Positions 30,201 through 57,866 of a DNA stretch of 64,000 nt are shown one piece after another. Under the pieces are notes generated by a model that was not told where the DNA came from, did no database searches, and saw nothing but the letters and a program-made list of their open reading frames with translations. Location: the IMG/VR virus record IMGVR_UViG_3300047476_001768, positions 1-64,000 of that record; one strand, 5' to 3'. The translations under genes and the position numbers were made by a program. This DNA comes from a virus. The first letter of the stretch is position 1; each line of letters begins with the position of its first letter.

Positions 30201-33200
30201 CCTTGAGAGATATTGTAGGAGTTACAAAAATAACCATTGACGGGTTTGAACTTGTTCAAGGAATTGATTATCAAGTAGGATCTATAGGACAATCTGGAAT
30301 CTCCAATATTGTGCTTATTGACGGCGGCGCAAATTATGTCAGCGCACCAACTGTGGTTATTTCTGGCGGCGGCGGAACCGGAGCCACTGCTTCTGCTAGC
30401 ATTGATGTTACTACAGGTAAGGTCACAGGCATTGTGGTGAATAATGCCGGTTCTGGTTACACATCGGTGCCTACTGTGGTTTTATCTGGCGGCGGTCCGG
30501 TTGACCCGGAAGATGTGGCTACTGCTTATGTGGTCCTGCCTGAACAAACCGCAATTACATTTACAACTGCTCCACAAAGCGGTGCTAAGATAAAAGTTGA
30601 TGTGAATCAATTTGGGCTGATCCAAAAGATAGAAAATCCTGACATAGTCAAGGACAGTTATTTTGGCCAAAGCGTAGCAATTGACCAGTCAAGAAAAAAT
30701 ATATTTGTTGGTGCCCCTGGTTACAGAGACATTGATTACTATAACGGAAAAGTATACCGATTTGTTAATAGACCATTGGCATTCGGTAAAGAAATTGGAG
30801 ATAATGCCAGCATCACAGTTTTACAAGGCGATTATATTAGAATAAATGACATTCCTGTGGTATTCCAGGAAAGTGATGGTAACAGTGAAAAGGTTGTTAA
30901 AGATATTAACAACCGAAACATAACCGGTTTGTTTGCTCGCACCGATGGCGTGAGCAATCTAGAATTTTTATCTGATCTTGGTATTCCTTTAAGAGGATCG
31001 GGCTATTTTGAGTCCAATGTGTCTATAGTGATAGGCGATCCGGACCAAATTGAAGACGCTGTTACGGCCACAGTAGGTAACATTACATTGTTTGCGAACG
31101 GAGCTATCAACGGATTTGAAATTACCAACAGAGGTAGTGGATATACTTTTGCTCCTACAGTAACAATAACTGGTGCGAACACCGTGTTGGCCAGAATGTC
31201 ATCAACTATCGGGGCGTCTCAAATTACTGTGCTGGCTAATGCAACTGCTAAATCAAACAGCATCAACATATTGCCTGGCGCAGGTACTGCACTACAAGAT
31301 ATAGGGTTCTCTATCTATACACCAGTTCAAGAATTCACACATCCGGATCTTGGTGCTCCGGAAAGATTTGGTACTCTTATTAAACTGGATAATGCAACTG
31401 GAGAAACTTTACTGGTATCTAGTGAAGGCGGCGTTACTCTTAAGAAAAGCACATTTGATAATCAAGCAACAGTTTTTGACAAAGACACTACAAGATTTAT
31501 TGATCTTTTGAAAAACTCTGGAGCTGTTTACATTTATGACTACCTGCCGATTCCAAACGAGACTATAAATTCGCCAAGCCAATATCTATACAACCAGGTA
31601 TTACAGAATAGTAATATTTTCTTTGACGACAATTTTGGCTCTGGAATTGAAATAAGAAACAACTGGATCATTGTGGGTGCTACCAAGAGCGATTACTATA
31701 ATGAAAATGCAGGACTGTTGCATCTCTTTGTCAACGCCAACAATCAAAAAGGCTGGAGCAAATTAAGATCAAGAACAGACAAAGTTGACATTGATTACAT
31801 TAATCAAGGATTTTTATACAATCGCAAGAGTCAAACCATTGTTACAGATCTTGATTATTTTGATCCAGTTAAGGGCAAGATACTAGGAATAGCCGATCAA
31901 GATTTAGATTATAAAACTATCTATGATCCGGCAGTTTACAATAGAGGTAATGGAACCACTCAAACATTTGATGAAAACAGCGTTTGGAATGATTTGCAAG
32001 TGGGTAAAACCTGGTGGAACCTAGACAAATGTAGATATATTGATTATGAGCAAGGAGACCTATCATACAGAACAACCTTCTGGGGAGAATTATTTCCAGG
32101 CAGTGAAGTAGAAGTATGCGAGTGGGTTGACAGCTACGTGCTGCCTAGTGAGTATCAAACCTTGATTGGTAATGGTGAAGCATTGTATGCTGATGACAGT
32201 GCTTATGTAGAATTTAACTTTTTAGACAATCAGTCAGGGTTAATACGTACCAAATATTATTATTGGGTTAAAAACAAAATCACAGTAGACACAGTAAGAA
32301 CCAAACGAACAAACAGTGTGGCATCGTTGGCAAAAATTATTGCAGATCCAAAAAGTCAAAATCTGCCTTACTTTGCTGTGGTTGCCGCTAATGCATTCAG
32401 TTTATACAATGTAAACAGATATTTGTTAGCTGACGAAATAATTTTCAAAATAGATTATGGCATTACTGTAAATGAAAATATTGCGCACAGTGAATATGAA
32501 CTGGTTCAGCAAGGAAACGCACTCAGTCCAATACCTGAAAAATATATTAATAAACTGATTGATAGCCTTGCAGGGGAAAATATTGTCGGCGAGGTAATAC
32601 CTGACCTATCCTTGAGAGAAAGCACACGTTATGGTGTTTCTCTTCGTCCTCGTCAGAGCATGATTAAAGATACCATAAAGGCCACAGAAGTATTTGTTAA
32701 TTATGTGAATCGTTTTCTTAAGGATCAGTTGATTGTAAAATATAAAGATTTAAGTATCTTAAAAAATGCAGAACCAATACCGCCAGATGCTGCTGGTTTT
32801 TACAATCTTATTGTTGACACCAAAGACGAACTTCTATATATCCAGACAGAAGAACTGCAAGCAGGGTACAAAGTATTAGTAAGATCTGACTCAGATTACG
32901 AAGCCTACTGGACCATATACGAGTATACTCCAGATTCTGACTACGATATTTGGTCGTTGATAAGAATTCAAAGTTACGACAGCAGTCGTTATTGGTATTA
33001 CGACAATTGGTATGCCAGCGGGTATAACGAAACAACCACGATTGATTATATTGTTCCAGAATTCAAGGATACAGTTACACTGACCTTGGTGCCAGGAAAC
33101 GTGATAAAAGTACTTGATGACGGAAACGGACAGTTTGAATTGTATGTGACCAATGCAGATTTATCATTAACTGTGATTGGAGTTGAAAATGGAACCATAC

Positions 33201-36200
33201 AAATCAGTGCCGCACTTTATGATTACGACCTAAGTCTTGTTGGGTTTGATAATGCTCCGTTTGACACTGTTGGATTTGCTAAAACTATTGCATTAGAATT
33301 AAGAAATATTGTACAAGGATTGATTGCCGGAATATTCACAGACACAGATATTATACAGATAAACAAGTTGTTCTTCACATTGATCAACTATATTTTGAGC
33401 GAACAAAGATCTTTAGATTGGTTGATCAAGACCAGTCTGGTTTCGGTAGTACACAAGATACGTAAACTAGAAACCTTTTCGTCGTATATCCGGGATGAGC
33501 AAGATTACTTTGAAAACTATATCAATGAAGTAAAACCATACAGAACCCAACTGCGCAATTATCTTTTGGATTATGAAGGACTTGACACTGTAAATGCCAA
33601 TGCTACAGATTTTGATTTACCAAGCATTTATGATGTAGACCAACAAAAATATCGCACACTTGACATAAACAGCTCAACAGATGCAAATTTAATTGCCAAT
33701 AGTTATGCAGTTAATTGGTCAACCAATTACAAATATGTGCTAGAGTCCGTGATTGTGGTCAGTCCTGGCGAAGGTTATGTAAGAGCTCCTAGTGTGTTCA
33801 TAACCGGTGGCGGCGGCACCGGTGCTACAGCAGTAGCCACTATTGACAATAGCACAGGACAAGTGATTGAAATTGATTTAGTGAACAGAGGAACTGGTTA
33901 CACAAGTCAGCCTATTGTGACTATTGAAGGTGGCGGCGGATTTGGTGCTAGAGCATATACAGTATTGTCAAGCATTGGAGGTGATGTTTCATCTAGTACT
34001 GTGAATAAAACTGTTAGAAATATTAAAACCTTGATAAGTTTTGATAGAGTAACTTATGCTTCGCAAGTGATCAAGTGGAAACCTTATACTACCTATCACA
34101 CGGATGATATCGTAGTGGTGCCTGACGTTACTTCGGTATTCTTCAATAATTTACCAGATCAGTCATTACCAAGGTACAATTATGCTTATAAAATATTGAA
34201 AACAGTACTAGGATCAGGAACACTTGATTTGAATCTGTTCAATGATTCGTCTGTGGTGCAAAAACTGTCAGGGGTTGATATTGACAATGCCATTGACAGA
34301 ATTGCAGTGTACAATCAACCTGGAAGTCCTGATATTGCGACCTTGTACAGCAGCCCTGACAGCCAACGATTGGATGCAAGCAACACAAATGAAGCTGCTA
34401 TTAGTCAAAACAATGAATGGAACAAGGTTCTGCACAGCGGTGGCGTTGCTTATCTGCATGAATATCAATATCTAGCAATTGGAAATAGATCTTTACTGGC
34501 TGTGAGTCAAACAGGCGAAACCTGGACTTATGTGCCTGTAAGAGAAAATGACATTGATCTTAGAGACGGGTGCTTTTTTGACGGTAATGTATGGATAGCG
34601 GTAGGTAATCAGGGCAGCTTGTTAACCTCAACAAATGCGTTGACTTGGACCAAAGAACAAGTTACTGAATTTAAATTCAGTCCAGACGCTAACAATCCTG
34701 AAGGTGCTGTACAACAAAATGCAAATCAAGTGGTGGACTTTGTGGGAGTAGTAGCGGTATCAACCACACGATCAAACTATGTAATAGCTGTAGGTAATGG
34801 AAACAGTATTTTAGTGAATCCATATGATACATCAGATGATGTTGCGCAAGGTTGGTATAGTGCTAAACCGCAGCCAAACATTTTTGCTTCTCCAAGACAA
34901 CTCTTAACAGTGCATGCTGTAGACTTTGGTACCTTAACTGATAATAATGGTACGCAATACACCGTGGATCTTCAATCGTCTGGTTACTTTACGTCAGGTA
35001 CTCAGTCCTTAATGAAACAGGGGTTTGTGATTATTGGCGGAGTAAACGGAAACATGTTTATTACCAGTTACAATCGTTTAGACGATTTGATTCAAGGATA
35101 TGCCAAGTCCTATAATTATGATTCTGGTAAACTTACCGATCAGTCTTATCCATGGATCTCTATGGCGGTTCCAGCTGAAATAAGAGGTCAAGGCGACGGA
35201 ACGTCAGGAGAACAAATCAACGGTATAGCAGTTAGCACCACATTTGACAGGTATATTGTGGCAGTTGGATCTGCAGGCACATTGCTTTGGAACAGAATTG
35301 ACAGTCCTCTTGAAGTACAAAATGGAACAGCAGATCTTGCAAGTGACACCATTGGAAAAACTGTAGTGGATCATGGAATTTATGTGTATAAGAATTTTAG
35401 ATATTTTAACGCAGATAATTTTGTTAGTCCACTAACTCCAAGTGCGCTGGAAAAAATTGATTTTACAGACATTGCATGGGACAATGAAAAATTTGTAGTA
35501 ACAGGAACTGGCAGTACCACCATCTGGGGATATCCTGGATCACAAAGCGAAGCTTACATAGAACTAGGAAATATCAATCCAATTCTATCTGCTGAAACAA
35601 GATCTGGTTCGTCTACAGAAACACTGGCTAGATGGGATGCTGTAGTATCTGCGACCTCAGTTGAAATTGTTATTAATGGATCAGCTCTTATAGGGTGGAT
35701 AATTCCAGGTATGACGGTGACCTCTACACATCTACCAACAGACAGTGTGGTAACCGCAGCTAGTTACGATGCTGGTACTGACGAATGGACGGTAGATGTT
35801 GCATTTGCTTCAACATCGTTTATTTCACGAACAGGACAGAACATCAGTTTTGCCTATGTGTTTACTGAAAACATTCCGGTGGGAACCACACTAACCTTTA
35901 CAGGTCCAAATAATGAAACCAAAACTCTAGTAACCAGTAGAGCTGTACTAAGAGGTGAAAACACAGTGTATGTGACAGGGTTTGATAAAGTTGCAGCCAA
36001 CTGGGCTATATCCGGCACTGGCATACCAGTAGGTGCAAGAATTAAACAAATTGGCAGATTCCCTGCATTTACTTGGCAGTATGCTGAAGGAAGTGGTAGA
36101 AATCTCAATATTGATTATAACAGTATAAGTGTAAACACAACCACAGTACAAATTAATCAACCGTTTACTGCAAATATTCCTGCAGGGTCTTTAATTACTT

Positions 36201-37165
36201 TGTTTGATACCACAGGATTAAAATCTCAATATGTTGCTGCGCAGGCGTTGCCTAAAAATTCTAGAACTTTAGTGTTTGCAAATGCAGTAGCAATCACAAC
36301 AGGCTTTACTCTAGAAGCAAATACCACTTTAGGAATTCAAGGTGGCACTAGCGTGATTGGAGCAAAACTTTATACTATTGGTGGTGTGCTGAATCATTTG
36401 GCTAAGGATATTCCTGATCTGATACCAGGAACAAGCTATAGCGGTGTAAAAGTACTCGGCCAGCCGTTTACTGAAACCGGATCTGATATATTAAGTTTAG
36501 ATACCACCATCAGTAGCGAGTACGTTGATACTAATCTTGGTACTAGACCTGAAGACATTGTTATTAACGGTGGTCAATTTATTGATACATACAGTAGCCA
36601 TGCACCTCAAGAACTGGTGCCTGGACAAGTGATTGACAGTTTACAAATGAATGTTTTCACTGCAAATGTGGTCAATGGTAATGTTGATTACGGTAATGTG
36701 ATAGCTTACAAGATATTCACTGATTATAAAAAACCAACTGTTTATTATAGATTGAGTCAGGCAAATACCACAGTATTGGCTTCTAGTTTATCGTATGATG
36801 ATACAGAAATCATAGTTGACGATGTAACAAAGCTGCCAGAGCCAAATGCAGTGCTAAATCAACCTGGATCTATATGGATCAATGCAGAACGCATTAACTA
36901 TTTTGGAAGAGATGTAGGAAGAAATGCTATTACGGACATACGTAGAGGTGCTTCAAGAACCAGTATTCCATTAACACATGAAGCAGGTAGTTTGATCAGC
37001 GATGCAAGTCAGGCGCAAGAAATCACAAGAGATACGGTGTTAACCATACTGTCTGACCTTACAGTGAACAATGGATTTGATGGAACTGCTAATTCTGTAA
37101 CATATCAAACCAGTATAAGCAACCAGGTACCTCAATCAAGTATTTGGCTAGAACCAGGAACATAA
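18299..37165 (+). CDS. Giant tail/baseplate structural protein with repeat modules and two beta-propellers
   Basis: A single open frame of 6288 residues (about 690 kDa), preceded by a GAGAGA sequence 12 bases before ATG 18299. It follows gp6, the position of gp7 in T4. The N-terminus ([20 protein letters not shown]... [18 protein letters not shown]) resembles large virion proteins of marine T4-like phages. Repeated beta modules of the form GxGYxxxPxVxIxGGGGTGAxAxA occur around residues 690-750, 1160-1220, 3400-3560, 4000-4080 and 5150-5220. Residues about 3140-4490 carry seven FG-GAP-like blades such as [11 protein letters not shown]...LYVGAPG. Residues about 5390-5760 carry BNR-like blades such as [20 protein letters not shown]. 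It probably forms the peripheral baseplate or a host-contact appendage. The gp7 role is inference. A missed frameshift is unlikely because the frame stays open over 18.9 kb. Confidence 0.75.
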
Positions 37166-41502: not shown

Positions 41503-43488
41503 ATGAGTTATAACATTATCAAAACGGACGGGACACCCTTAGCCACAGTGGCAGATGGGCAAACCAATAGCACGGCCAGTAGTTTAACGCTGATTGGTAA
41601 AAACTATGCTGGTTATGGCACGTTCCTAAACGAAAATTTCATAAGACTACTTGAAAATTTCGCCAATTCAAGCGCACCAAGCAACCCTATTGTGGGTCAG
41701 CTATGGTGGAAAAGCGACACAAGACTGTTGCAAGTTTATGATAGATTTGGTACCTGGAAAACCATAAGCGGTGCTCAAAGTTCCAGCGATGCACCGTCAA
41801 ATGCTATTGCAGGGGATCTATGGTTTGATACTGTAAATCAACAGTTGAAAGTGTACAGCGGTGCCAGCTGGATTATTATTGGACCCAGCTTTACAGCTAC
41901 CACAGGTACATCGGGTGCTATTGCTGACACTATTGTAGACACCAGCTTGATCAGCCACGTGGTGGTTAAGTTTTTTGTACAAAATCAATTGCTGGGAATA
42001 ATGAGCAAAGATGCAGTGTTTACACCAAATTCAACACTGCCTGGATTTGCTACAGTCAAGCCTGGATTTAATTTGGCAACAGATAGAATTCCTGCATTGA
42101 CTTATAACGAAAATGCAAACAATGCAGCCTATTTAGGCGGTATCATTGCCAGCAACTATTTAACCAAGACCACTCCTGTTATTGAAGCTCAGTTAGAAAT
42201 TCAAAATCCTGACGGTTTGATTATTCAAGAAACTGCTGGTACAGTTGATTATTTTGAAATCAATGTTGCAGGTAACAACGTGAACTTGGCCAGTCTGTTG
42301 CGTGGAAATGGTTTAATTATTAAAACCAAGCCAGACAATGCAGGCGGTCTAAGCATCAATGCAATCACTATTGACAGAACCACTGGTCTAGTGAGTGTTA
42401 GTGCAGACCCTACAGCAGTGCTAGGTATCGCAACCAAAGGGTATGTTGACACCAATGACACTGCAATCAAAGGATTTATTGCTGCCAACGTTAATACACT
42501 GAACACAACAATTAACACACAGTCAGCAAATGCATCTTTGGTTTACAGTAATGTGCGAGTGATTCAGAGCGAGCTAGGCATAGTAGGCGGACCTTTAAGC
42601 GGATTCGCTAATACCACACCATGGACACAGATTACAGGTCCGGCAGGTTCGGGTGGTGCAAGTCAAACCATTGCAGCAAACATTGTGGCTTTATGGTCAA
42701 ATGTTGCAGCAATTCATAGTAATGTACTGAGTGCAACTGGGGTTTCTCCTGCTGCTACTGCCAGTATGTTTTCTAATGTAAGAGCATTGCAGAACGGTTT
42801 AAGCAGTCTTGGAACATCAGCAATTTTACGTGATGGTACTAGAAGTGTTCAAGGAACACTGTTACCAGACACCACAGAAACCTACGACTTTGGCTCTACT
42901 AGTTTAAGATATAAAGATTTCTTTGGTCGTATAGTAAACACAACTGGTAATGTGTATTCTGGTGCTAATGTAGTGGCTGGCCAAAGTGTGGTTGCCTTGA
43001 GCTCGCTTTATACCCCATCACTAATAGCCAATGCTGCAGGTGCCACAGGCACAGTAACCGGGACTTGGACTTTAACTTCTGGATCAAGATGGCAAGCTAC
43101 ATACGCTGACTTAGCCGAACGTTATGCAGCTGATGCGGTATACCCAGCTGGTACAATTGTAGCTCTTGGTGGTACACATGAAGTGACACAAGAAAACACT
43201 GCACTAAGTGAAGAAGTATTTGGTGTAGTCAGTCATGACTTTGCATATCTGATGAATCAAGAAGTAGGCGACAACGATACACATCCTCCAGTTGCATTAA
43301 CTGGACGAGTAAAAGTGCGTGTGATCGGCAGAGTACGTCAAGGACAGCGCATAGTAGCAGCTGGCAACGGTTGTGCTCGTGGTGCTGGTGCAGGCGAAGC
43401 CACTCCGTTCAATGTTATTGGACGAGCTATCACAGCCAAGACCAGTGACGAAGAATCACTACACGAGTGCGTGGTTAGTATTAATTAA
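41503..43488 (+). CDS. Long tail fibre, paralogous N-terminus, intramolecular-chaperone-like C-terminus
   Basis: A 661-residue protein. The N-terminal ~200 residues (YNIIKTDGTPLATVADGQTN, NYAGYGTFLNENFIRLLENF, PIVGQLWWKSDTRLLQVYD) are paralogous to the previous fibre. The shaft includes LPDTTETYDFGSTSLRYKDF. The last ~150 residues (SRWQATYADLAERYAADAVY, VALGGTHEVTQENTALSEEV, FGVVSHDFAYLMNQEVG) resemble C-terminal fibre domains of the peptidase-G2 / intramolecular chaperone class in marine phages. It is the last plus-strand structural gene. Its end overlaps the convergent AcpS gene by 8 bases, which marks the start of the accessory island. Confidence 0.8.
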   Translation: MSYNIIKTDGTPLATVADGQTNSTASSLTLIGKNYAGYGTFLNENFIRLLENFANSSAPSNPIVGQLWWKSDTRLLQVYDRFGTWKTISGAQSSSDAPSNAIAGDLWFDTVNQQLKVYSGASWIIIGPSFTATTGTSGAIADTIVDTSLISHVVVKFFVQNQLLGIMSKDAVFTPNSTLPGFATVKPGFNLATDRIPALTYNENANNAAYLGGIIASNYLTKTTPVIEAQLEIQNPDGLIIQETAGTVDYFEINVAGNNVNLASLLRGNGLIIKTKPDNAGGLSINAITIDRTTGLVSVSADPTAVLGIATKGYVDTNDTAIKGFIAANVNTLNTTINTQSANASLVYSNVRVIQSELGIVGGPLSGFANTTPWTQITGPAGSGGASQTIAANIVALWSNVAAIHSNVLSATGVSPAATASMFSNVRALQNGLSSLGTSAILRDGTRSVQGTLLPDTTETYDFGSTSLRYKDFFGRIVNTTGNVYSGANVVAGQSVVALSSLYTPSLIANAAGATGTVTGTWTLTSGSRWQATYADLAERYAADAVYPAGTIVALGGTHEVTQENTALSEEVFGVVSHDFAYLMNQEVGDNDTHPPVALTGRVKVRVIGRVRQGQRIVAAGNGCARGAGAGEATPFNVIGRAITAKTSDEESLHECVVSIN

Positions 43489-43846
43489 TTGATAGGACCG
43501 CGTTGGCGATCAGTAGATCGCCTTCGTGGCTTATGCTTACATTGCACAAGCAACCACTTACACGTTTGCCAAGTTCGTGCCCAAAAGAAATTAACGGTTG
43601 CCCTTTAGGTGATTTGCTTAATTGAATATTTTTCCAAACAACATCTTCGGCAATACCTGTTCCAAATGATTTAGACACAGCTTCTTTTACTGCCCACGCA
43701 CGAGCAAGAAACTTGCCTTGGTCGTTGGATAATAAAAACTCTTCGTGTTCTTTTTCCGTTAGTATACGTTCTGCCAGTCGATCCTTGCGTGGCATTTCAC
43801 GAAATCTTGATACGTCAACTAAGTCTATTCCTGTGCCTAAAATCAT
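43481..43846 (-). CDS. acpS: Holo-[acyl-carrier-protein] synthase (AcpS)
   Basis: A 121-residue protein with the full AcpS pattern. The N-terminal ILGTGIDLVDVSRF holds the Mg-binding Asp (residue 8), FLARAWAVKEAVSKSFGTG holds the KEAxxK motif in the middle, and NVSISHEGDLLIANAV is at the C-terminus. Bacterial AcpS is about 120-130 residues. It transfers 4'-phosphopantetheine from CoA to the conserved Ser of an acyl carrier protein. It starts 2 bases after the stop of a desaturase on the same strand, so the two form an operon. A predicted ACP gene is divergent from that desaturase. All catalytic positions look intact, so an active enzyme is likely. Confidence 0.92.
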   Translation of the reverse strand: MILGTGIDLVDVSRFREMPRKDRLAERILTEKEHEEFLLSNDQGKFLARAWAVKEAVSKSFGTGIAEDVVWKNIQLSKSPKGQPLISFGHELGKRVSGCLCNVSISHEGDLLIANAVLSIN

Positions 43847-43848
43847 GT

Positions 43849-44628
43849 TTACACCTTAAAAAATTTATCTATAATCCATGCAGCAGGATCATGTTCTCCT
43901 GGCATCATGGCCTGATTATAACTGCGCATGTTGTGATGATGATTGTTGTGTAAACCTTCACCAAATTGAAATCGTTGAATCCATTTATTATTCCAACTGT
44001 TATCACCTGTGTTAAAGTTTTGATATGAGCCTGGAATTTTCCAATGACTGATTAAATTTGTAACAATGTTACCATGTAGCAAACTCCAACCAGCAGGAGA
44101 TATCAATCCAAACAGCAATAATTTCCAACTGACTGTGCCGACTAATATACACAGCACGACCCAGATTGAAAAATAATTGTGATGGATAAAAGTTAACAAT
44201 GAATTTTTAACAAGATGTTTTGGACTCAGACCGATAGACTTTTCATTTGCAAAATAATTTTCTCCGCGTAAAGGCCAAAGCAGCGCAGTGTGCAACCACC
44301 CGTCGCGAGGACTGTGGAGGTCTTGTGTGGTATCACTGTGCCTATGATGATAAAGATGATGGGTACTCCAGGATATTGGACTACCTTGCCCGGTTAACAC
44401 ACTGCCACATGCCAGTAGTATTGATCTCTTTGTCCCAGTTACAAAACTATTATGAGCAAAATATCTATGCAGACCAATTTGTAAAAAAACAAAATTGATT
44501 ACCTTGGTCCAAGCAAAACTTGCGATCAACCACCACCACATGGAATATTGTACGGCAATTATTACACTAATTGGTACACTGAGCAATGCCAAGAGGTAAA
44601 ACAGTCTATACTGAATATTAAATTTCAT
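43849..44628 (-). CDS. Membrane fatty-acid desaturase (copy 1, AcpS-linked)
   Basis: A 259-residue integral-membrane diiron desaturase. The three His boxes are HRYFAH (residues 54-59), HLYHHRHSD (91-99) and GLHNNHHHN near the C-terminus. Hydrophobic segments at about 9-45 and 150-195 would span the membrane. This box pattern is that of delta-9-type acyl-CoA/acyl-ACP/acyl-lipid desaturases, which insert a cis double bond using O2 and an electron donor. The protein is shorter than typical bacterial enzymes (about 300 or more). The next gene downstream is acpS and the divergent neighbour is an ACP, so acyl-ACP is the likely substrate. No ribosome-binding site is evident before ATG 44628. Confidence 0.88.
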   Translation of the reverse strand: MKFNIQYRLFYLLALLSVPISVIIAVQYSMWWWLIASFAWTKVINFVFLQIGLHRYFAHNSFVTGTKRSILLACGSVLTGQGSPISWSTHHLYHHRHSDTTQDLHSPRDGWLHTALLWPLRGENYFANEKSIGLSPKHLVKNSLLTFIHHNYFSIWVVLCILVGTVSWKLLLFGLISPAGWSLLHGNIVTNLISHWKIPGSYQNFNTGDNSWNNKWIQRFQFGEGLHNNHHHNMRSYNQAMMPGEHDPAAWIIDKFFKV

Positions 44629-44634
44629 AGCGGT

Positions 44635-44650
44635 AATATTTATAAATATT
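44635..44650. promoter_or_regulatory. Bidirectional T4-type late promoter (palindromic)
   Basis: AATATTTATAAATATT is a perfect 16-base palindrome that presents TATAAATA on both strands (plus core 44641-44648; minus core 44644-44637). It sits in the 36-base gap between the divergent desaturase (ATG 44628) and ACP (ATG 44665). On the plus side it is followed by a strong TAGGAGG site at 44651-44657. On the minus side the leader would be only a few bases. Confidence 0.65.
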
Positions 44651-44664
44651 TAGGAGGTTATATA

Positions 44665-44928
44665 ATGAACTCAATTGAACAACAACTGCTTGAAATAGTC
44701 AAACTGCATTTTAATAAAAAGAAATTGCCTAAATTGCATCTGGATCTAACTTTTCGCAAGGATCTGGGGCTTGATAGTCTAAGCCTTACTGAATTGATTT
44801 TGGCATGCGAAGAAAAATTTGAAGTTGAAATTGATGTAGAACATCCATTAACTGCACAAGCTAAAACGTTACGCGACTTGTATAATGCTTTAGAGATGCT
44901 TATCGGTCACTTCGAATCAAGTAAATGA
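44665..44928 (+). CDS. Acyl carrier protein
   Basis: An 87-residue protein from ATG 44665, preceded by the strong Shine-Dalgarno TAGGAGG. An upstream in-frame extension exists but lacks such a site. The phosphopantetheine attachment motif is DLGLDSLSLTEL, with Ser38 as the modified residue, followed by the acidic helix ACEEKFEVEID typical of ACPs. The N-terminal part (IEQQLLEIVKLHFNKKKL) is more basic than in FabF-type ACPs. It carries acyl chains as thioesters on the pantetheine arm. Neighbours are a divergent desaturase-acpS pair and a convergent second desaturase, which overlaps its end by 29 bases. This suggests a specialised ACP for acyl desaturation rather than general fatty-acid synthesis. 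Confidence 0.9.
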   Translation: MNSIEQQLLEIVKLHFNKKKLPKLHLDLTFRKDLGLDSLSLTELILACEEKFEVEIDVEHPLTAQAKTLRDLYNALEMLIGHFESSK

Positions 44929-45679
44929 GCCAAGCGGTGGGGTCAAGTTCCCACCAGCGTTTGCCAAAATTACTACTGCTAGCAACTCCGTGATGATTAT
45001 TATGCCAGGCTTCGCCTAGTATCAAAGGCCAAAGCCAAATCACGTTCATGCTATGATCTTTGGTTTCAAAATTACGATATCCTAATTTGGTATAATGATT
45101 TACACTGGTATTCAAAGCATAGCTGTGAAATGCAATAAAAGCTGGAAACATCACGCCCCATAACCATAACACCGGACTGATACAAATTAAAATAGCATGA
45201 CTGATCCAAAAGATAGAAAGATAGTGATTGTGTGCAAAAACCACGTCTGGATCCCGCATGAGATCAACCACATACTTAGGACTCAAACTGTCCTGCTTCA
45301 TTTTAAACATCCATAAAAAATAAGCATGCCAAAATCCCTGATGCGGGCTATGAGGATCACGATCGGTGTCTGACAGCCTATGATGATAGCCTCTATGTAT
45401 CAATACCCAGTAGATTGGGCTGCCTTGTCCACTCATGATAGCACACCATATCATAAAACATTTACGCAATCTGCCAGTTTGGAAACTTTTATGACTAAGC
45501 AGTCTGTGATAACAAGCACTAAGTCCTAACATCATGAGTAGTATATAGCCAACGATACTATATATCCACCAATAGGTACTTGGCTCGGTGGTCAGCAGAT
45601 ATATTGAATAGATTCCTGCTGCTTGTATAGGTAACCATCCGCCCCACATAGGAGCCCAAAATTTTATTTTCTCGACCAT
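44900..45679 (-). CDS. Membrane fatty-acid desaturase (copy 2, ACP-linked)
   Basis: A 259-residue desaturase if started at ATG 45679 (MVEKIKFWAPMWGGW). The frame also allows ATG 45724, which would overlap the upstream gene by 61 bases. The His boxes are HRLLSH (58-63), HRGYHHRLSD (95-104) and AWHNNHHG near the C-terminus. There are several hydrophobic segments (about 15-55 and 140-185). The ending LDPTAWLIYLI matches desaturases of the acyl-CoA type. It overlaps the GNAT-like gene upstream and converges on the ACP gene. It is diverged in sequence from copy 1, so this is probably not a recent tandem duplication. Confidence 0.87.
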   Translation of the reverse strand: MVEKIKFWAPMWGGWLPIQAAGIYSIYLLTTEPSTYWWIYSIVGYILLMMLGLSACYHRLLSHKSFQTGRLRKCFMIWCAIMSGQGSPIYWVLIHRGYHHRLSDTDRDPHSPHQGFWHAYFLWMFKMKQDSLSPKYVVDLMRDPDVVFAHNHYLSIFWISHAILICISPVLWLWGVMFPAFIAFHSYALNTSVNHYTKLGYRNFETKDHSMNVIWLWPLILGEAWHNNHHGVASSSNFGKRWWELDPTAWLIYLIRSDR

Positions 45680-46209
45680 TGTTCTAAAAGATTCTGATTT
45701 CCCTGATACACAATACGTTGCCAACAGCTTTCATCTGTTGCGTTATCGCACACTTGGTAACGATGATGATCATATTCAAATTCTAGGTTGTAATTGTGCT
45801 TATACTGATCCACCGTCCACTGTTGCCAATTGGGTGCTTCTCTGCTGATAAAGATTAACTCAACTTCTGTGTGTTCTTTTAACCAATTAATCTGAGAACG
45901 CAACAGATGTTCACCTTCCGGCATAAGATTACGTATAGGCCCTTCACTGTGACTCACTGACCACAATCTATTTATAATACGATAAGTGTTGGACGGCCAG
46001 CACGACCGATTTAATATACTGGCACATAGTACAGGCATACCGTACTGATTAAATGCGATGGTTAGTGCCAAACATTCATTATAAAAATGATCTTGATTAT
46101 AATTTTTCCATAACGGATGATCTTGATTTCTATAATTTCGTTCTCTTAAATGTTCAAACAGTGGATCCCAAAGTGTATCGGTTCCCGGACGCCAAGTTAT
46201 TGCATGCAT
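45664..46209 (-). CDS. GNAT-like hypothetical protein
   Basis: A 181-residue protein. Residues about 40-75 (FYNECLALTIAFNQYGMPVL, CASILNRSCWPSNTYRIINR) look like strands of a GNAT-type fold. No clear acetyl-CoA loop (Q/RxxGxG/A) is visible. The N-terminus (ITWRPGTDTLWDPLFEHLRE) and the end (ATDESCWQRIVYQGNQNLLEQW) are typical of uncharacterised marine phage proteins. It shares the operon with desaturase copy 2, overlapping it by 16 bases. The function is not assigned. The GNAT suggestion is weak. Confidence 0.4.
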   Translation of the reverse strand: MHAITWRPGTDTLWDPLFEHLRERNYRNQDHPLWKNYNQDHFYNECLALTIAFNQYGMPVLCASILNRSCWPSNTYRIINRLWSVSHSEGPIRNLMPEGEHLLRSQINWLKEHTEVELIFISREAPNWQQWTVDQYKHNYNLEFEYDHHRYQVCDNATDESCWQRIVYQGNQNLLEQWSRK

Positions 46210-46804: not shown

Positions 46805-47713
46805 ATGTTCCATTATCTTGAAAACAATTGGATGAAGTGGTATTACGACGACGACCCGTCTAACCTTTTTAGAACCAATACCAATCAAATTTTTAATATT
46901 GACTTTGAATTAGATTCTGCTCCTTGTCTGGATCTTAGAACAGAAATGATTCGCGCATGTCATAGCATTAGAGATTATTATCCAAATGATAAATTTAGTT
47001 TGATGTTGTCTGGAGGTAGCGAAAGCGAGATGCTGGTTAGAGCCTTTAAAGAGTCTGGTGTGCCTTTTGAGGTATATATTGGAAGATATGAAAACCATTT
47101 AAATATCTATGATGTGTCTTACGCGGTAGTGGCATGCGAAACTATGGGTGTTCCTTATAAATTTATTGACTTTAATACTAAAAAATTTTTTGAAAACGAT
47201 GTTGTGGAGTGTAGTATAAAGGCAGAAATTACAATTCCACCAATCTTGGTTATTTTGGCATTGACTGATAAAGTGGATGGTATTCCTATACTTGGAGATG
47301 GTAACCCAGAACTTTGGAGATTTACTCCAGGGTACGAAAAGACTGGAATCTGGGCTAATGTAGAAATAGAATACGACTTTGGAAGAACCAAGTATTTTAT
47401 GCGACAGAACAGAATTGGTATATCTGATTGGTTACGTTGGTCGCATAGATTATTAAAAGCCTATGCCAAAACCAAATGGTTCGGAGACTTAACATCGGAT
47501 CGTATAATTGGCAAAAGAGGAGTGCATTCAACCAAAATACAGGGCTACCGGGAAGCCTGGCCAGAAATGACTAATAGAGTTAAAAAGCATGGATTTGAAG
47601 ATATACATGATTATCTTTTTAATGATCTTCAAAAAGAACTTGCATTAAATTATCACGGTGGTTGTTTATATAGACAGGTAGTGCTTTCTCCAATAGACAA
47701 AATTTATTTTTAA
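46805..47713 (+). CDS. PP-loop ATPase-like protein (asparagine synthetase type)
   Basis: A 302-residue protein. KFSLMLSGGSESEMLVRAFK near residues 60-80 is a PP-loop (SGGxxS) for ATP adenylation, with Glu in place of the usual Asp (SGGSES). The middle has a strand-rich core (VVACETMGVPYKFIDF, GIPILGDGNPELW) and the C-terminal half is Lys/Trp-rich. Asparagine synthetase B, beta-lactam synthetase and tRNA thiolation enzymes use this fold to activate a carboxylate or carbonyl by AMP transfer. No glutamine amidotransferase domain is present. Being sandwiched between two 2OG-like oxygenases suggests a shared small pathway. The substrate is unknown. Confidence 0.6.
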   Translation: MFHYLENNWMKWYYDDDPSNLFRTNTNQIFNIDFELDSAPCLDLRTEMIRACHSIRDYYPNDKFSLMLSGGSESEMLVRAFKESGVPFEVYIGRYENHLNIYDVSYAVVACETMGVPYKFIDFNTKKFFENDVVECSIKAEITIPPILVILALTDKVDGIPILGDGNPELWRFTPGYEKTGIWANVEIEYDFGRTKYFMRQNRIGISDWLRWSHRLLKAYAKTKWFGDLTSDRIIGKRGVHSTKIQGYREAWPEMTNRVKKHGFEDIHDYLFNDLQKELALNYHGGCLYRQVVLSPIDKIYF

Positions 47714-49207: not shown

Positions 49208-49648
49208 ATGTCAGTTGTTTTTATATTCCTTACCTGGACTTTTTTGCTGTATTGGATCCATAGAGCGGTTCATAAAATTCCTGTTATAAACTCGTTACAT
49301 TGGGATCATCACAAATACATCAACACCCACGAAACCTTTTGGCATTGGAACAACATTTTTTTATTCAATGACACTTGGGCAAGCACTGTTGATTTATGGA
49401 TTACTGAAGTGGTTCCGACTATAATTTTTAGTTACTGTACCGGCGAGTGGTGGATTTTTATTTTTTATTATGCGTGGGCTGCATTTTTACAAGAGACTGT
49501 AGAACACAACAAAAAATTTAATTGGTATCCATTTTTAACCAGCGGCAGATGGCATTTGTTGCATCATAAGAATAATAAAATAAATTTTGGATTATTTTTT
49601 CCTGTGTGGGATATACTGTTTCAAACACACAAATCTTTAAAAACTTAA
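49208..49648 (+). CDS. Fatty-acid hydroxylase / sterol desaturase family protein
   Basis: A 146-residue integral-membrane protein. The His motifs of the FA_hydroxylase superfamily are all visible: HRAVH (18-22), HWDHH (31-35), VEH near residue 100, and HLLHH (116-120). Hydrophobic segments surround them (about 3-16 and 65-95). The family uses a diiron site to hydroxylate or desaturate lipids, sterols and carotenoids. At 146 residues it is a minimal form. It is the last gene of the six-gene plus-strand operon and its end overlaps the convergent gene by 12 bases. With the desaturases it makes five diiron lipid-type enzymes in this island. Confidence 0.8.
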   Translation: MSVVFIFLTWTFLLYWIHRAVHKIPVINSLHWDHHKYINTHETFWHWNNIFLFNDTWASTVDLWITEVVPTIIFSYCTGEWWIFIFYYAWAAFLQETVEHNKKFNWYPFLTSGRWHLLHHKNNKINFGLFFPVWDILFQTHKSLKT

Positions 49649-53002: not shown

Positions 53003-53665
53003 TTACCAGTTTATGGCGTTAGCATAATGATTGTCAATTACCAGCTCGGGAATATTAATCCAATCTGGTTGGTCCAACATCCATTTTACAATTTTGGCTA
53101 CCTCCTCGGGGCGAGTCCAACATATACTTGATTCCCAGTTGTAGTTCAAGTAATGATCTTGCAGAGGAGTATAATTATTTGAAATTAATTTAATCATGTC
53201 AGTATCAGTTGCTGCTGGACTGATACACATGACTTTGGTTGGTTTATTTTTACTATAAGATAATGCAAGAGATGTTTCTTTAAGATATTTTTTAGCACAT
53301 GCGTATGCAATGCGCAATGCTGGTTCTTTGGCTAAAAAACTTTTTTCGGCACTGATACTGCTAACATTTATAATTTTACCATGATCCATTTTTTCATAAA
53401 ATCGCATTAGTAACTCAACTGCAATTGATCCATTCATGGACATCATGAGAGATAGATTTTTTGATAGTAGTGCAGCGTTGTTTACAAATATATAAGGAGT
53501 ATATTTTTTGAGTAGATGTTCTCTAAACTCAACATCTAACAAATCGCCTTGTTCGGTGGCAGAACTTGATCTCCCAACAGTGATTACTTCATACTCGTCG
53601 GCTAGTAAGTCTGCAATAGCTTTTCCTATACCTCGTGTGCCGCCAGTGATTAGAGCTTGTTTCAT
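53003..53665 (-). CDS. Short-chain dehydrogenase/reductase (SDR)
   Basis: A 220-residue protein from ATG 53665; an upstream in-frame ATG at 53704 would add 13 residues before the Rossmann strand. Classical SDR motifs are present: TGGTRGIGKA (nucleotide-binding), NNAA, INVSSISAEKS (catalytic Ser) and YACAKKYL (YxxxK). The length is near the usual 240-250. It oxidises or reduces a carbonyl/hydroxyl with NAD(P)(H). In lipid pathways this family includes FabG-type 3-oxoacyl-ACP reductases, which is a possible link to the ACP, but nothing specific shows that here. It is divergent from the B12-type radical SAM gene. Confidence 0.88.
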   Translation of the reverse strand: MKQALITGGTRGIGKAIADLLADEYEVITVGRSSSATEQGDLLDVEFREHLLKKYTPYIFVNNAALLSKNLSLMMSMNGSIAVELLMRFYEKMDHGKIINVSSISAEKSFLAKEPALRIAYACAKKYLKETSLALSYSKNKPTKVMCISPAATDTDMIKLISNNYTPLQDHYLNYNWESSICWTRPEEVAKIVKWMLDQPDWINIPELVIDNHYANAINW

Positions 53666-53724: not shown

Positions 53725-55173
53725 ATGTCTATTGATTTCGTGATACTCACAAACACCTCTGGTCCAACTTGGCAGCGATCAATTGGTGCATATCAGGTGG
53801 CATATCATTGCCGACAATATGGATTCTCATGTCAGGTTATTGATTTTACTGATCATTTTTCTTTTGATGAATTGACTAATGCTATACAAAAATTTGTTGG
53901 TAGTAACACCTTGGCTATAGGAGTGTCAACTAGTTTTTACTCAGGTAGTACTAAGAAAAAATACATTAGTGCTGATCGGAGTTTTGATAGTATAATCCCA
54001 GATACTGTAAGATCTTGCCTTGTGGCCGTTAAACAACAGTTTAAGAATATTAAATTACTAGCTGGCGGAGCTCAAAGTTATCAAGTGCAGTCTGATGATT
54101 TGTTTGATGCAGTATTTCATGGATATAGTGAACAAAGTGTGCTGGAATATTTAATTTCATTAAAAACAGGAAAAAAAAGACTGTGGCCAGTCCAAGGGCA
54201 AACTGATATAATTAACGGAGCAACTGCACATTTTGACATTCAAACACTAGCACATACCTGGAGCAAACATGACTGTATATTGCCTCAAGAAACTTTGCCA
54301 ATAGAAATCAGCCGTGGGTGTATTTTTAAATGTAAATTTTGTTCTTATCCATTAAACGGAAAAAAGAAATTTGATTACTTGCGCAGTGCAGAATTAATAA
54401 AAGAAGAATTAGAAACAAACTATAGATTATATGGTACAACAAACTACTATTTTACAGACGATACATTTAATGATTCTACATATAAACTAGAGCAGTTGCA
54501 CAAGGCAATAACATCGTTACCTTTTAAAATAAAGTTTGTGACTTATTTGAGATTAGATTTACTTTATCGGCATCAAGAACAAATAAAACTTCTTTACGAA
54601 ATGGGACTAGGATCTGCATTCTTTGGTATAGAAACATTAAACTGGCAAACAGGAAAAGCCATTGGCAAAGGAATGAACCCTCAAAAAATTAAAGAATTCT
54701 TAGTTGAGTTACACGATGTCAAATGGAAAAAAGAAATACCAATTACTTGCAGTTTTATAATTGGCTTGCCTCACGAAACAATTGAAAGTGTACAAGCAAC
54801 ACACAAATGGTGCGAGTCTGCTCCTATTAACGATGTATGGTTTCCTTTGTTTATTCGTTCGGATACGCATTATAAAAGTGAATTTGATATAAACTTTTCA
54901 CAGTATGGGTATAAGATTGATCAAAACGAAGAATGGTACAATGATAATTTTAAGTACGCTGAGGCATTAGCATTAGCAGAAGAATATAACCAAACTGGTA
55001 TGTACCATAATAAGTTTCCATCAACATGGTTTCTTTTTAGTCTATTAAGCTATGGATATACTATTAATGAACTAAAAAATATTGCCTCTAAGGATTTACC
55101 CTGGAGACAATACACAAGAGATAAAAAACGATTGGTTGAACAATATAAAAAATTATTATTTAATTTATCTTAA
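53725..55173 (+). CDS. Radical SAM protein with B12-binding-like N-terminal domain
   Basis: A 482-residue protein. Residues 1-160 form a Rossmann-like domain (YHCRQYGFSCQVIDF, LAIGVSTSFYSGS, KLLAGGAQSY, DAVFHGYSEQSVLEYL) of the kind that binds cobalamin in B12-dependent radical SAM enzymes, although no DxHxxG is visible. The radical SAM cluster motif is CIFKCKFC (CX3CX2C, about 198-205), followed by YYFTDDTFND, FFGIETLNWQTGKAIGKGMN and ITCSFIIGLPHETIESV, all typical of the TIM barrel. Members methylate unreactive carbons or build unusual bonds in natural products and lipids. It converges on desaturase copy 3 with a 4-base overlap. Confidence 0.82.
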   Translation: MSIDFVILTNTSGPTWQRSIGAYQVAYHCRQYGFSCQVIDFTDHFSFDELTNAIQKFVGSNTLAIGVSTSFYSGSTKKKYISADRSFDSIIPDTVRSCLVAVKQQFKNIKLLAGGAQSYQVQSDDLFDAVFHGYSEQSVLEYLISLKTGKKRLWPVQGQTDIINGATAHFDIQTLAHTWSKHDCILPQETLPIEISRGCIFKCKFCSYPLNGKKKFDYLRSAELIKEELETNYRLYGTTNYYFTDDTFNDSTYKLEQLHKAITSLPFKIKFVTYLRLDLLYRHQEQIKLLYEMGLGSAFFGIETLNWQTGKAIGKGMNPQKIKEFLVELHDVKWKKEIPITCSFIIGLPHETIESVQATHKWCESAPINDVWFPLFIRSDTHYKSEFDINFSQYGYKIDQNEEWYNDNFKYAEALALAEEYNQTGMYHNKFPSTWFLFSLLSYGYTINELKNIASKDLPWRQYTRDKKRLVEQYKKLLFNLS

Positions 55174-55943
55174 GGCTTTGGCGATTTTGAAAGCAGTTTA
55201 CCAATGTAGCCTTCAACATCAATTTCCCACCAACGCTCATGTAAAACAAGTTTTCCAGGGTTAGCGTGATGATTATTGTGCCAACCGAATCCCATACCAA
55301 ACCATCCAAGCCATACATTGTTTGTACTTGAATCGTTTGTTTGATAATTTTTATATCCTCTATCATGGCAGAAATAGTTTACTAATCCTAGTTTTAAAAA
55401 GTCTAAGCAATAAGCAAGACAATAAAGGCATACCAGTATTGGATTTAGTAATAATAAAATCAAACAGAACGAGTAAATTATAATGTAATGATATTGATGA
55501 AAAAAACAGAACATACTATCTCGCATTTGTCTTGCCGCAAGAACTTTGGCCCATCTGTGTTTTAAATATTCTTGCTGGTTATTTCCTTGTGGAAAAGTCC
55601 ACGCATAAAAAACTTGAAATATAGATTTATGCTTTGGCGAATGAGGATCAAGATGCGTATCTGAAAATAAATGATGTGCTTTGTGTTGGATAGTCCAATA
55701 ACTTATCGGGCCAATGCCTCCTAGAGTGGTTAACAATGCTAACACCCATCTAACTGGTTTCCAAGTTTTAAATTGACCGTGTGCAAAATATCTATGTGCT
55801 GCAACACCATTGCCAATTACCCCAAATACAAACCAAAAAATAAAGAGAGTGAACAAATGATCTAGTGCATAAAACAGCCCTACTAGTCCCAAAAGGTGTG
55901 CAGGGAGAAACCACAACCAAAAGTTTTTACCGTACGTTTTCAT
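55170..55943 (-). CDS. Membrane fatty-acid desaturase (copy 3)
   Basis: A 257-residue protein. The His boxes are HRYFAH (50-55), HKAHHLFSD (87-95) and GWHNNHHANPG near the C-terminus. Hydrophobic segments lie at about 8-45 and 140-180. It is the last gene of the long minus-strand operon and overlaps the upstream desaturase by 4 bases (ATGA). The final residues (WWEIDVEGYIGKLL) fit delta-9-type desaturases. Copies 3 and 4 are adjacent but clearly different in sequence. Paired desaturases can act in turn to give a diene or a triple bond; this is inference. Confidence 0.88.
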   Translation of the reverse strand: MKTYGKNFWLWFLPAHLLGLVGLFYALDHLFTLFIFWFVFGVIGNGVAAHRYFAHGQFKTWKPVRWVLALLTTLGGIGPISYWTIQHKAHHLFSDTHLDPHSPKHKSIFQVFYAWTFPQGNNQQEYLKHRWAKVLAARQMRDSMFCFFHQYHYIIIYSFCLILLLLNPILVCLYCLAYCLDFLKLGLVNYFCHDRGYKNYQTNDSSTNNVWLGWFGMGFGWHNNHHANPGKLVLHERWWEIDVEGYIGKLLSKSPKP

Positions 55944-56692
55944 TTTTTAATAGCCCAAATAATCATTGCCGGTATATCCCATTCCCACCAACGTTCCCAG
56001 TTACTCCAGGAGTACGGCTTCGCATGATGATTGTTATGCCACCCTTCACCCATGGTGATTAGATTTGCTATCCAACTGTTTCTACTTTCATCGTTGATAG
56101 AGTGGGTCTTATATCCATGACGATGAGCAATAACAATAATTGCACTAGAAGAATGTAAACATAAACAGGCTGGAATGCAATAGGCAAAAATAACAAGCCA
56201 GGGATTGATTAAGAATAAAATTAAGCAATAGGTTAGTATTATATAGAAATAATATTTGTGTAATTTTCTTTGAAATGATTGTTCTCTTAAATCTCTGATC
56301 AGTTTAAGATCTAGTCTTATTTTAGGCCAGATGCCAAACCAAGCACGCCAGTTTCCGATCAAATAAGGACTGTGAGGATCTCCTTCGCGTTCGGCACGTC
56401 TATGGTGCTGCCGATGAATAGCAACCCATGCCAGCGGAGATCCTACTGTGGTAATCACCCCAATAACACTTAAAATTCTTTCAATAACTAATGATGTTTT
56501 GAATGAACGATGACTAAGCAGTCGGTGAAACCCAATATTAATGCCTAAAATTCCTATGGCCCAGTAAACAAACAAAGCGGTCCATAACAAATACCACTGG
56601 TCATGGAATATAGCATAGCAAAGTCCCAGTATGCCCACTGTATGATTTATTACTTGCAGCCCTCTAACTTGAAAATTATGCGAAATGACCAT
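55940..56692 (-). CDS. Membrane fatty-acid desaturase (copy 4)
   Basis: A 250-residue protein. The His boxes are HRLLSH (56-61), HRQHHRRAE (93-101) and EGWHNNHHAKPYSW near the C-terminus. Hydrophobic segments lie at about 15-55 and 145-185. Of the four copies its first box is most like that of copy 2 (HRLLSH). It overlaps the QueC-like gene by 17 bases and desaturase copy 3 by 4 bases, so it is translated from the same message as the radical SAM and glycosyltransferase genes upstream. Confidence 0.88.
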   Translation of the reverse strand: MVISHNFQVRGLQVINHTVGILGLCYAIFHDQWYLLWTALFVYWAIGILGINIGFHRLLSHRSFKTSLVIERILSVIGVITTVGSPLAWVAIHRQHHRRAEREGDPHSPYLIGNWRAWFGIWPKIRLDLKLIRDLREQSFQRKLHKYYFYIILTYCLILFLINPWLVIFAYCIPACLCLHSSSAIIVIAHRHGYKTHSINDESRNSWIANLITMGEGWHNNHHAKPYSWSNWERWWEWDIPAMIIWAIKK

Positions 56693-57308
56693 TTTTAATA
56701 GGATCCTGTTTTTCTAATTGATTAAATCCCCACTCGCGCTCTTTACACCCATTGCATCTGCCGCAAGGTACAAGCTCATGTTGATCGCAACTGTGAGTAA
56801 AAAAAAGTAATTGTTCTATTCCTAATTTATAATATATATCTATAATATGACTTTTTTCTAAATTTTTAAATGGAACTAGTACTTGCGCATGCTCGGGCAC
56901 TGGTATGTGTTCAAACCCAATCATATGTTCAGGTCTGTTGTGTATTACTCCAATATAGACCGTATCAAAGTAAGGAGGAAAATTAAATGCCTGCTTAACA
57001 GCCGAAGATACTTGTTTGATTTCTGGAAGAATAGTATTACCAAGTCTTAGAGGAGCTATCTCAATATTAAAAAGTTGATTTACTAAATTAATAATATTCT
57101 GGGCAAAATATTTTGATCCTTCTTTACGATTTATTTTGATTGGTTTTACAAGCTGATTACCGTTGGTGTTTTTCTTTTCAAGAAGCAGCAAATAATATAA
57201 TAAAGCACTATCAATTCCGCCGCTAACAAATACTCCAATTTTTTTTGTTTGCGGTAAGGTTAATTTTAAACTTCTTTGATCGTGCGCTGGACCGCAAACA
57301 ATTTCCAT
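56676..57308 (-). CDS. QueC-like PP-loop ATPase
   Basis: A 210-residue protein. The PP-loop is VFVSGGIDSALLYYL (about 27-41). The C-terminal end has THSCDQHELVPCGRCNGCKERE, the four-Cys zinc site plus the CGxCxxC(K/R)xR motif of 7-cyano-7-deazaguanine synthase (QueC). The centre differs: the QueC segment around the substrate pocket (NAxDYSGYPDC) is replaced by IHNRPEHMIGFEHIPVPEHA. QueC makes preQ0 in tRNA queuosine and in phage 7-deazaguanine DNA modification. No QueD, QueE or FolE is in this window. It may act on another carboxylate. It is located between a methyltransferase and two desaturases. Confidence 0.75.
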   Translation of the reverse strand: MEIVCGPAHDQRSLKLTLPQTKKIGVFVSGGIDSALLYYLLLLEKKNTNGNQLVKPIKINRKEGSKYFAQNIINLVNQLFNIEIAPLRLGNTILPEIKQVSSAVKQAFNFPPYFDTVYIGVIHNRPEHMIGFEHIPVPEHAQVLVPFKNLEKSHIIDIYYKLGIEQLLFFTHSCDQHELVPCGRCNGCKEREWGFNQLEKQDPIKNGHFA

Positions 57309-57311
57309 AAA

Positions 57312-57866
57312 TTATTTAATACCAATTATCATGTAACGATCAAAACTCCAATCAGGATAAACAAATGGCAGTTTACCACGATAGATTTCCAAGGACAATG
57401 GAAATTGATCGCAAAAATCTTCTAAACATTCAGTAACACTTGCATGATCGTCATGATTCATGTTATTACCTTGTAGTGCTACAGCAGTCCCGGCTGGAAT
57501 ATTTTCCCACCAATTTTTATCTTTAAAATGTTCGGTTGATGTATTTATTACTAAATCTGCTGTGGTATGCAAGCTGTTGCAATCTTCAGTAAATGCTTTG
57601 AATCGCCAATCCTGCCAGACCCAATACTCGTTTAACATGTCTGCTATTGGTTCGCATGTAGGGTCAACATCATAACTGCGTATGCGTTCAACATTGAACT
57701 TTCCGCGACTGAGCAACAAAAGAGCAGTGAGCCCGTACCAGCCTCCATATATGGCAGTTTCCTTGCTGTACAAATCAGTTAGTTCCAGTTGTCGGCAAAG
57801 CCATAATTTACTGCCTATTTGTCCACTGCTAAAAGCATCCTGATTTAATTGATATAACTTATTCAA
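57312..57866 (-). CDS. SAM-dependent methyltransferase-like protein
   Basis: A 184-residue protein that probably starts at TTG 57866, with GGAGA seven bases upstream and no early ATG. ETAIYGGWYGLTALLLLSRG resembles motif I with a GGWYG loop, and ERIRSYDVDPTCEPIADML resembles motif II with an acidic residue (DVDP). TADLVINTSTEHFKDKNWW matches motif IV. Similar short class I methyltransferases occur beside radical SAM and glycosyltransferase genes in marine T4-like phages. The substrate is unknown. The start overlaps the radical SAM gene end by 8 bases. Confidence 0.6.
   Translation of the reverse strand: MNKLYQLNQDAFSSGQIGSKLWLCRQLELTDLYSKETAIYGGWYGLTALLLLSRGKFNVERIRSYDVDPTCEPIADMLNEYWVWQDWRFKAFTEDCNSLHTTADLVINTSTEHFKDKNWWENIPAGTAVALQGNNMNHDDHASVTECLEDFCDQFPLSLEIYRGKLPFVYPDWSFDRYMIIGIK

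Follow-up and report, generated by a model that had tools for sequence, protein, structure and literature searches.

Lipid genes carried by phages have so far been interpreted one at a time, as steps borrowed to adjust host membranes. Desaturases encoded by cryopeg brine and sea-ice viruses were proposed to act on membrane lipids, in a paper that also cites the cyanophage desaturases of Roitman 2018 (PMC7300359). A lone acyl carrier protein (ACP) gene is found in Erythrobacter phage R6L (PMC5463345), prophages with acpP-fabF-fabG in the bacterial fab order have been reported (PMC8224337), and viral fabF, fabG and fabZ are listed in catalogues of auxiliary metabolic genes (PMC10653327, PMC12783922). 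Outside phages, JamABC alkyne cassettes and polyyne clusters have been described (PMC8406139). Here we analyze a 64,000-nucleotide stretch of viral DNA (the window), positions 1-64,000 of the 71,366-base IMG/VR record IMGVR_UViG_3300047476_001768, in which an ACP gene lies in one block with genes for a holo-ACP synthase (AcpS), two membrane fatty-acyl desaturases and a GNAT-fold protein. Our results suggest that viruses with this block make an unusual fatty-acid product themselves rather than only altering host membranes. A sequence-only reading of the window had noted no desaturase-AcpS-ACP unit as known from phages; likewise, we found no published description of one in the literature searched, though absence there is no proof of novelty.

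The block begins with AcpS (4′-phosphopantetheinyl transferase, 121 aa, 43481..43846, minus strand) and desaturase 1 (259 aa, 43849..44628, minus), followed after a 36-bp gap by the ACP gene (87 aa, 44665..44928, plus), the 3′ end of which overlaps convergently by 29 bp with desaturase 2 (259 aa, 44900..45679, minus). The fifth gene, for a putative N-acyltransferase with a GNAT fold (181 aa, 45664..46209, minus), overlaps the start of desaturase 2 with its 3′ end. The first four had been recognized at 43481-45679 in the sequence-only reading, and their intact open reading frames, positions and strand order were correct, as were the motifs named there: the DSL motif of the ACP reads DSLS with Ser38 in place, AcpS has Asp8, Glu55 and KEAVSK (for KEAxxK), and both desaturases have a complete set of His boxes.

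All four Pfam matches exceed the curated cut-offs (ACPS, PF01648, 3e-16; PP-binding, PF00550, 2.7e-9; FA_desaturase, PF00487, 6e-11 and 3e-12 for desaturases 1 and 2). AcpS also belongs to the NCBIfam equivalog TIGR00516 (88.1 bits, cut-off 59.8) and matches AcpS entries in the PDB, and its D8, E55 and K59 are invariant among 10 viral homologues. AcpS enzymes install phosphopantetheine on ACP. The phage ACP falls within PF00550 (37.6 bits, cut-off 20.8) and has the DSx serine, with the LDSLS motif and Ser38 invariant among 8 viral ACP homologues, but it scores only 39.4 bits against the canonical fatty-acid-synthase ACP equivalog TIGR00517 (cut-off 70.45) and is therefore a divergent carrier. 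Desaturase 2 matches the sequence of the human SCD1 structure in the PDB at 8e-16. All four desaturases encoded in the window (numbers 3 and 4 are described below) keep the conserved His ligands. With PF00487 scores over the cut-off as well, those of the block belong to the SCD/DesC superfamily of membrane fatty-acyl desaturases, whose members accept CoA-, lipid- or ACP-bound chains.

Conserved co-occurrence in relatives, proposed in the sequence-only reading as a check on the unit, was strong. We label viral and bacterial loci L001 and so on and their records G001 and so on; the window record is G000, G001 carries L001 and G002 carries L002. Scanning viral contigs with the ACP as anchor gave 12 loci, 11 of which were informative because the contig continues, and in 11/11 of these the ACP gene is faced by a converging desaturase gene, and AcpS and a GNAT gene are nearby. 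The order is not fixed: in the window, L001 and L002, AcpS is found beyond the ACP as seen from the GNAT gene, whereas it adjoins the GNAT gene in L006, L009, L014, L086, L093 and L130, and is adjacent to it in L090 and L091, where the desaturase is ~8 kb off. Orthologues of desaturase 1 adjoin AcpS in L001 (63% identity) and L130 (62% identity). With AcpS as anchor, 27/40 loci had an ACP and 25/40 a desaturase within the fetched flank, counts that are not fully independent, as one virus is represented at several loci and the query was built from desaturase-bearing loci. These AcpS loci come from an alignment-based scan of IMG/VR; scanning IMG/VR with a single AcpS sequence returned no matches.

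As a control, we anchored 80 relatives on a structural marker gene, 56 of which had at least 3 kb past the last tail-fibre open reading frame, and in none of the 56 did the sequence fetched past the tail fibres contain a gene for an ACP, AcpS, desaturase or GNAT protein. The window, L001 and L002 hold the whole set (ACP, AcpS, desaturase and GNAT) exactly at this site. The desaturase next to the GNAT gene of L130 comes from another desaturase clade, while GNAT, ACP and AcpS are kept and the desaturase-1 orthologue stays beside AcpS; since one desaturase has been replaced by another with its partners retained, we argue that the slot itself matters. In the closest usable pair, L014-L017, the ratio of nonsynonymous to synonymous substitution rates (dN/dS) was 0.14 for AcpS, 0.16 for ACP, 0.18 for GNAT and 0.07 for desaturase 2. 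By this measure selection on these genes is purifying, and the block is therefore more than chance.

The GNAT-fold protein has no family match in Pfam, PHROGs or NCBIfam. Its AlphaFold (AF2) model has a predicted local distance difference test score (pLDDT) of 92, and Foldseek matches it to RimJ/RimI-type, AAC(6′) and further GNATs, placing it within the GNAT fold; a CoA-dependent acyl-homoserine-lactone synthase is found at rank 35 among the matches. The CoA pyrophosphate loop [QR]xxGx[GA] is missing in 14/15 family members, the remaining match being chance-like. We count this, and the acyl-homoserine-lactone synthase among the fold matches, in favour of the carrier-protein pathway set out below. 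Among informative loci with a desaturase sharing 46% identity or more with desaturase 2, the GNAT gene adjoins the desaturase in 17/20 (exceptions L008, L015 and L059). The only match in a cellular genome is a GNAT-desaturase pair on a 3.5-kb contig (L132, WLDB01000107.1) of an actinobacterial metagenome-assembled genome. We reject a cellular origin for the protein, as this contig is probably viral and misbinned. The GNAT-fold protein is the fifth core gene of the unit and virus-specific.

Several relatives appear to extend the block towards chain building. Beside the GNAT, desaturase, ACP and AcpS genes, ten loci (L005, L006, L009, L086, L090, L091, L093, L095, L099 and L130), some of which overlap on one contig, encode in one run a FabZ-like dehydratase, a second ACP of ~120 residues and a beta-ketoacyl synthase. 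The expected residues are conserved: in the synthase a Cys, a Lys and two His, in FabZ the HFPxxxIMPG/Glu site, and in the second ACP the serine of its DSI motif. Among 42 records, the synthase is found in 15 and FabZ in 10. A condensing enzyme and dehydratase together with an ACP, as in a type II synthase, are thus present in about ten relatives, and neither enzyme is found in G000, G001 (355 kb) or G002. From its gene content, this run would amount to a small viral type II synthase for fatty acids or polyketides. The surroundings of L093, L130 and L005 (head maturation protease, ATP-dependent DNA ligase, endolysin and ribonucleotide reductase) are as expected of phages. Loci L023/L113 (contig 3300013006_001903), L110 and L111 have six to eleven desaturase genes each with AcpS and a ketoacyl synthase, L023/L113 also holding an ACP. 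In the 96-kb record of L070 (G048), a ketoacyl synthase and two AMP-binding enzymes accompany a GNAT-desaturase pair, with no ACP or AcpS match.

AcpS and ketoacyl synthase matches in GenBank phage records were set aside, as contaminating bacterial sequence or flanking host DNA seems to be their source. The suspect records include small unannotated Listeria, Enterococcus and Staphylococcus contigs carrying bacterial housekeeping genes. An annotated beta-ketoacyl synthase I on an E. coli prophage record likewise looks like host flank or contamination, and the 'Acinetobacter phage' MD-2021a contig, which carries btuB and baeS, looks contaminated.

Our data show the intact genes, their catalytic residues, the gene linkage, the selection and the GNAT fold, while an ACP-bound substrate, the use of acyl-ACP by the GNAT-fold protein, and what the product is and does are inferred. 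We tentatively favour, at a little under an even chance, a dedicated carrier-protein pathway in which chains are desaturated on the ACP and then transferred by the GNAT-fold protein to an amine. Phage AcpS would transfer phosphopantetheine onto Ser38 of the phage ACP, and the host fatty-acid synthase would load it with a fatty chain, which in some relatives may be built at least partly by the phage condensing enzyme and FabZ dehydratase. One or both membrane desaturases would then add double bonds to the ACP-bound chain, and the GNAT-fold protein would move the unsaturated chain onto an amine to give an N-acyl product. As the phage keeps its own AcpS, its ACP may need a matching enzyme. The sequence-only reading had proposed a dedicated system for acyl-ACP desaturation or acetylenation; the conserved AcpS-ACP-desaturase unit at its centre stands, while acetylenation and late expression are unsupported. 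The unit drawn there, AcpS with ACP and two desaturases, is real and incomplete, given the GNAT gene as a fifth core member and the ketoacyl synthase, FabZ and second ACP in about ten relatives, and the find is therefore larger than first described.

Several observations weigh against a dedicated carrier-protein pathway. Many further phages in our set have one to several desaturases without an ACP, and several viral records, some of 95-400 kb (G008, G013 and G014), have the GNAT-desaturase pair and no detected ACP or AcpS. The ACP is therefore not strictly required, and on this gene content it is an optional component within a broader desaturase system of viruses. The ACP and desaturase genes are on opposite strands and so do not form one transcription unit. 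Superpositions of the GNAT model on solved structures in Foldseek are loose (root-mean-square deviation 5-8 Å), and a profile search of PDB sequences with the GNAT family gave no meaningful match, solved acyl-ACP-using enzymes included.

A rival reading is membrane remodelling, in which the desaturases act on host membrane lipids, ACP and AcpS boost host fatty-acid synthesis, and lipid genes are pooled in one variable region. The SCD/DesC class does include acyl-lipid enzymes. Desaturases without ACP or AcpS are found in many relatives, and for phage desaturases reported earlier, membrane lipids were the proposed substrate (PMC7300359). What membrane remodelling leaves unexplained is a divergent, sub-cut-off ACP with its own AcpS, the tight ACP-desaturase convergence and the conserved GNAT gene, and we consider it rather unlikely, though the likeliest of the rival readings. 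The desaturase tree bears on it as well. This tree holds 86 desaturases, with every locus that has a neighbouring GNAT or ACP gene included and the rest only sampled; it was computed quickly and has several long branches, which makes deep placement uncertain. Desaturase 2 falls in a virus-only clade with support 100 (17 rows, one of them the L132 contig), separate from the cyanobacterial DesC clades, from SCD1 and from the ligase/ACP-linked clade. A place among enzymes that act only on membrane lipids had been named in the sequence-only reading as speaking against a unit, and desaturase 2 lies outside the sampled acyl-lipid DesC enzymes of cyanobacteria. The same tree bears on a JamABC-like acetylenase or terminal desaturase, which would yield an alkyne-tagged chain; by analogy, the phage block could work in this way using host-made acyl-ACP. 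The best plasmid relatives of desaturase 2 are found in bacterial ligase-ACP clusters of Polaromonas, Pseudonocardia and Streptomyces, the best of all being flanked by a fatty acyl-AMP ligase and an ACP, and the Streptomyces cluster has the make-up of the polyyne clusters in PMC8406139. However, bacterial ligase/ACP-linked desaturases (5/6 sampled, a small number) form a clade with support 99 together with three of unknown context, and the viral desaturases fall outside it. The sequence-only reading had seen no acyl-ACP ligase in the window, and this extends to the whole 71-kb record and the closest 355-kb relative, G001, neither of which has an AMP-binding (PF00501) ligase. Among 49 records, a JamA-like AMP-binding ligase is present in six, none with a window-type ACP/AcpS block. 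Because of the missing ligase and the separate clade of desaturase 2, the block is by these tests not a JamABC cassette; the JamB/JamC-type assignment suggested earlier is not upheld, and we give acetylenase chemistry only a very slight chance.

Two further explanations take the desaturases as unconnected with the carrier. The ACP could serve another task, such as modification of a surface glycan, a tail protein or DNA bases, with the desaturases mere neighbours. The position of the block immediately after the tail-fibre genes in the window, L001 and L002, and radical-SAM and QueC-like genes in the region, are in keeping with this; yet the ACP-desaturase-GNAT adjacency is kept where there is no tail-fibre neighbour (e.g., L005, L006, L009 and L093), and we find another task unlikely. 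Alternatively, independent cargo genes may have gathered in a hyperplastic region, since gene content at the site is highly variable and the 56 marker-anchored relatives hold other genes there. Such hitchhiking is hard to square with repeated co-occurrence in diverged phages despite changes of gene order that put AcpS on one or the other side of the block, with the desaturase replacement in L130 and with purifying selection on the genes tested, and appears quite improbable.

The virus itself is a member of the T4 superfamily. The window encodes a T4-type late sigma factor, SbcCD-like proteins, and baseplate wedge and hub proteins, and the nearest matches of a structural protein are in Atu_ph07 and other jumbo phages of ~340-490 kb, so the 71,366-base record is probably a fragment of a jumbo-phage genome. 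The closest relative, L001, lies on the 355-kb contig G001, which has a structural protein in common with the window at 99%. One open reading frame of 6,288 codons spans 18299-37165 (plus) in the tail/structural region. Late expression of the block is unsupported because the T4 late octamer TATAAATA is not enriched in the window (4 found versus 5.6 expected). In the gap between desaturase 1 and the ACP gene, at 44635-44648, there is a palindrome, TATAAATATTTATA, made of two overlapping T4-late-type octamers in opposite directions.

Other genes that may bear on the module lie further along the window, and of these the sequence-only reading had missed desaturases 3 and 4, a fatty-acid hydroxylase and a short-chain dehydrogenase/reductase, in addition to the GNAT gene. 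A PP-loop protein (46805..47713, plus; SGGxxSE motif) resembles the asparagine/carbapenam synthetase domain, its AF2 model (pLDDT 85) having carbapenam synthetase and asparagine synthetase as top Foldseek matches. It is a frequent neighbour whose role in the module is uncertain: its modelled fold hints at amide chemistry, but the protein is widespread beside viral desaturases. Possible accessory genes are the fatty-acid hydroxylase superfamily protein (49208..49648, plus; PF04116, 3e-15), the FabG-like short-chain dehydrogenase/reductase, a possible ketoreductase (53003..53665, minus; PF00106, 7e-13; TGGTxGIGKA and YxxxK conserved), and membrane desaturases 3 (55170..55943, minus; PF00487, 2.8e-15) and 4 (55940..56692, minus; PF00487, 1.9e-18), both with intact His boxes. 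Near this lipid region are a radical-SAM gene (53725-55173), a QueC-like gene (56676-57308) and a SPASM/radical-SAM gene (57859-59040). A Rieske-type protein (CxH...CxxH) is encoded beside the PP-loop gene in L002 (7831-8538) and in nine further loci, and is a possible electron donor or oxygenase for the desaturases.

A broader possibility, which we regard as doubtful, is that this jumbo-phage group carries a transferable, natural-product-like pathway making a virus-specified unsaturated lipo-amide used during infection. It would comprise AcpS, one or two ACPs, the condensing enzyme, dehydratase, desaturases, GNAT and the asparagine-synthetase-like protein as amide former. If true, this would be a secondary metabolite of viral making rather than a step taken over from the host. 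In any case, the carrier, the enzyme that activates it, a desaturase and a predicted acyltransferase have stayed together in one virus lineage despite divergence, rearrangement and desaturase replacement, and related phages extend the carrier-desaturase block towards chain building. Should the product be confirmed, viruses would have to be seen as producing acyl metabolites themselves. The question of what phage ACPs and desaturases act on becomes directly testable with a set of four or five small genes.

N-acyl synthases of the FeeM/FeeL and LuxI types are GNAT-like fold enzymes paired with a carrier-bound acyl donor. The phage GNAT protein has a similar fold (RpaI from the PDB is among the Foldseek results) and we propose a carrier-bound donor for it too, while the PDB profile search detected no sequence similarity to the solved members. 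Like the window desaturases, the phage lipid desaturases in PMC7300359 and that of Pelagibacter phage Mosig are virus-encoded membrane enzymes with three His boxes. In the literature searched, however, such desaturases are described with no ACP, AcpS or GNAT partner and membrane lipid is the assumed substrate, and no ACP or AcpS is annotated within 6 kb of the Mosig gene. The R6L ACP and the prophage acpP-fabF-fabG genes share with our locus a phage-carried carrier, the prophages adding a condensing enzyme and a reductase, but unlike the phage block neither is reported with an AcpS, desaturase or GNAT unit. The JamABC/polyyne clusters (Polaromonas JS666, L135; Streptomyces Mg1, L136; Pseudonocardia, L143) resemble the phage block in their ACP-adjacent desaturase of the SCD-like superfamily, although their desaturases and those of the phages are in separate clades. 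These clusters also include a fatty acyl-AMP ligase, which is missing from the phage block; the latter instead carries its own AcpS and a GNAT-fold protein.

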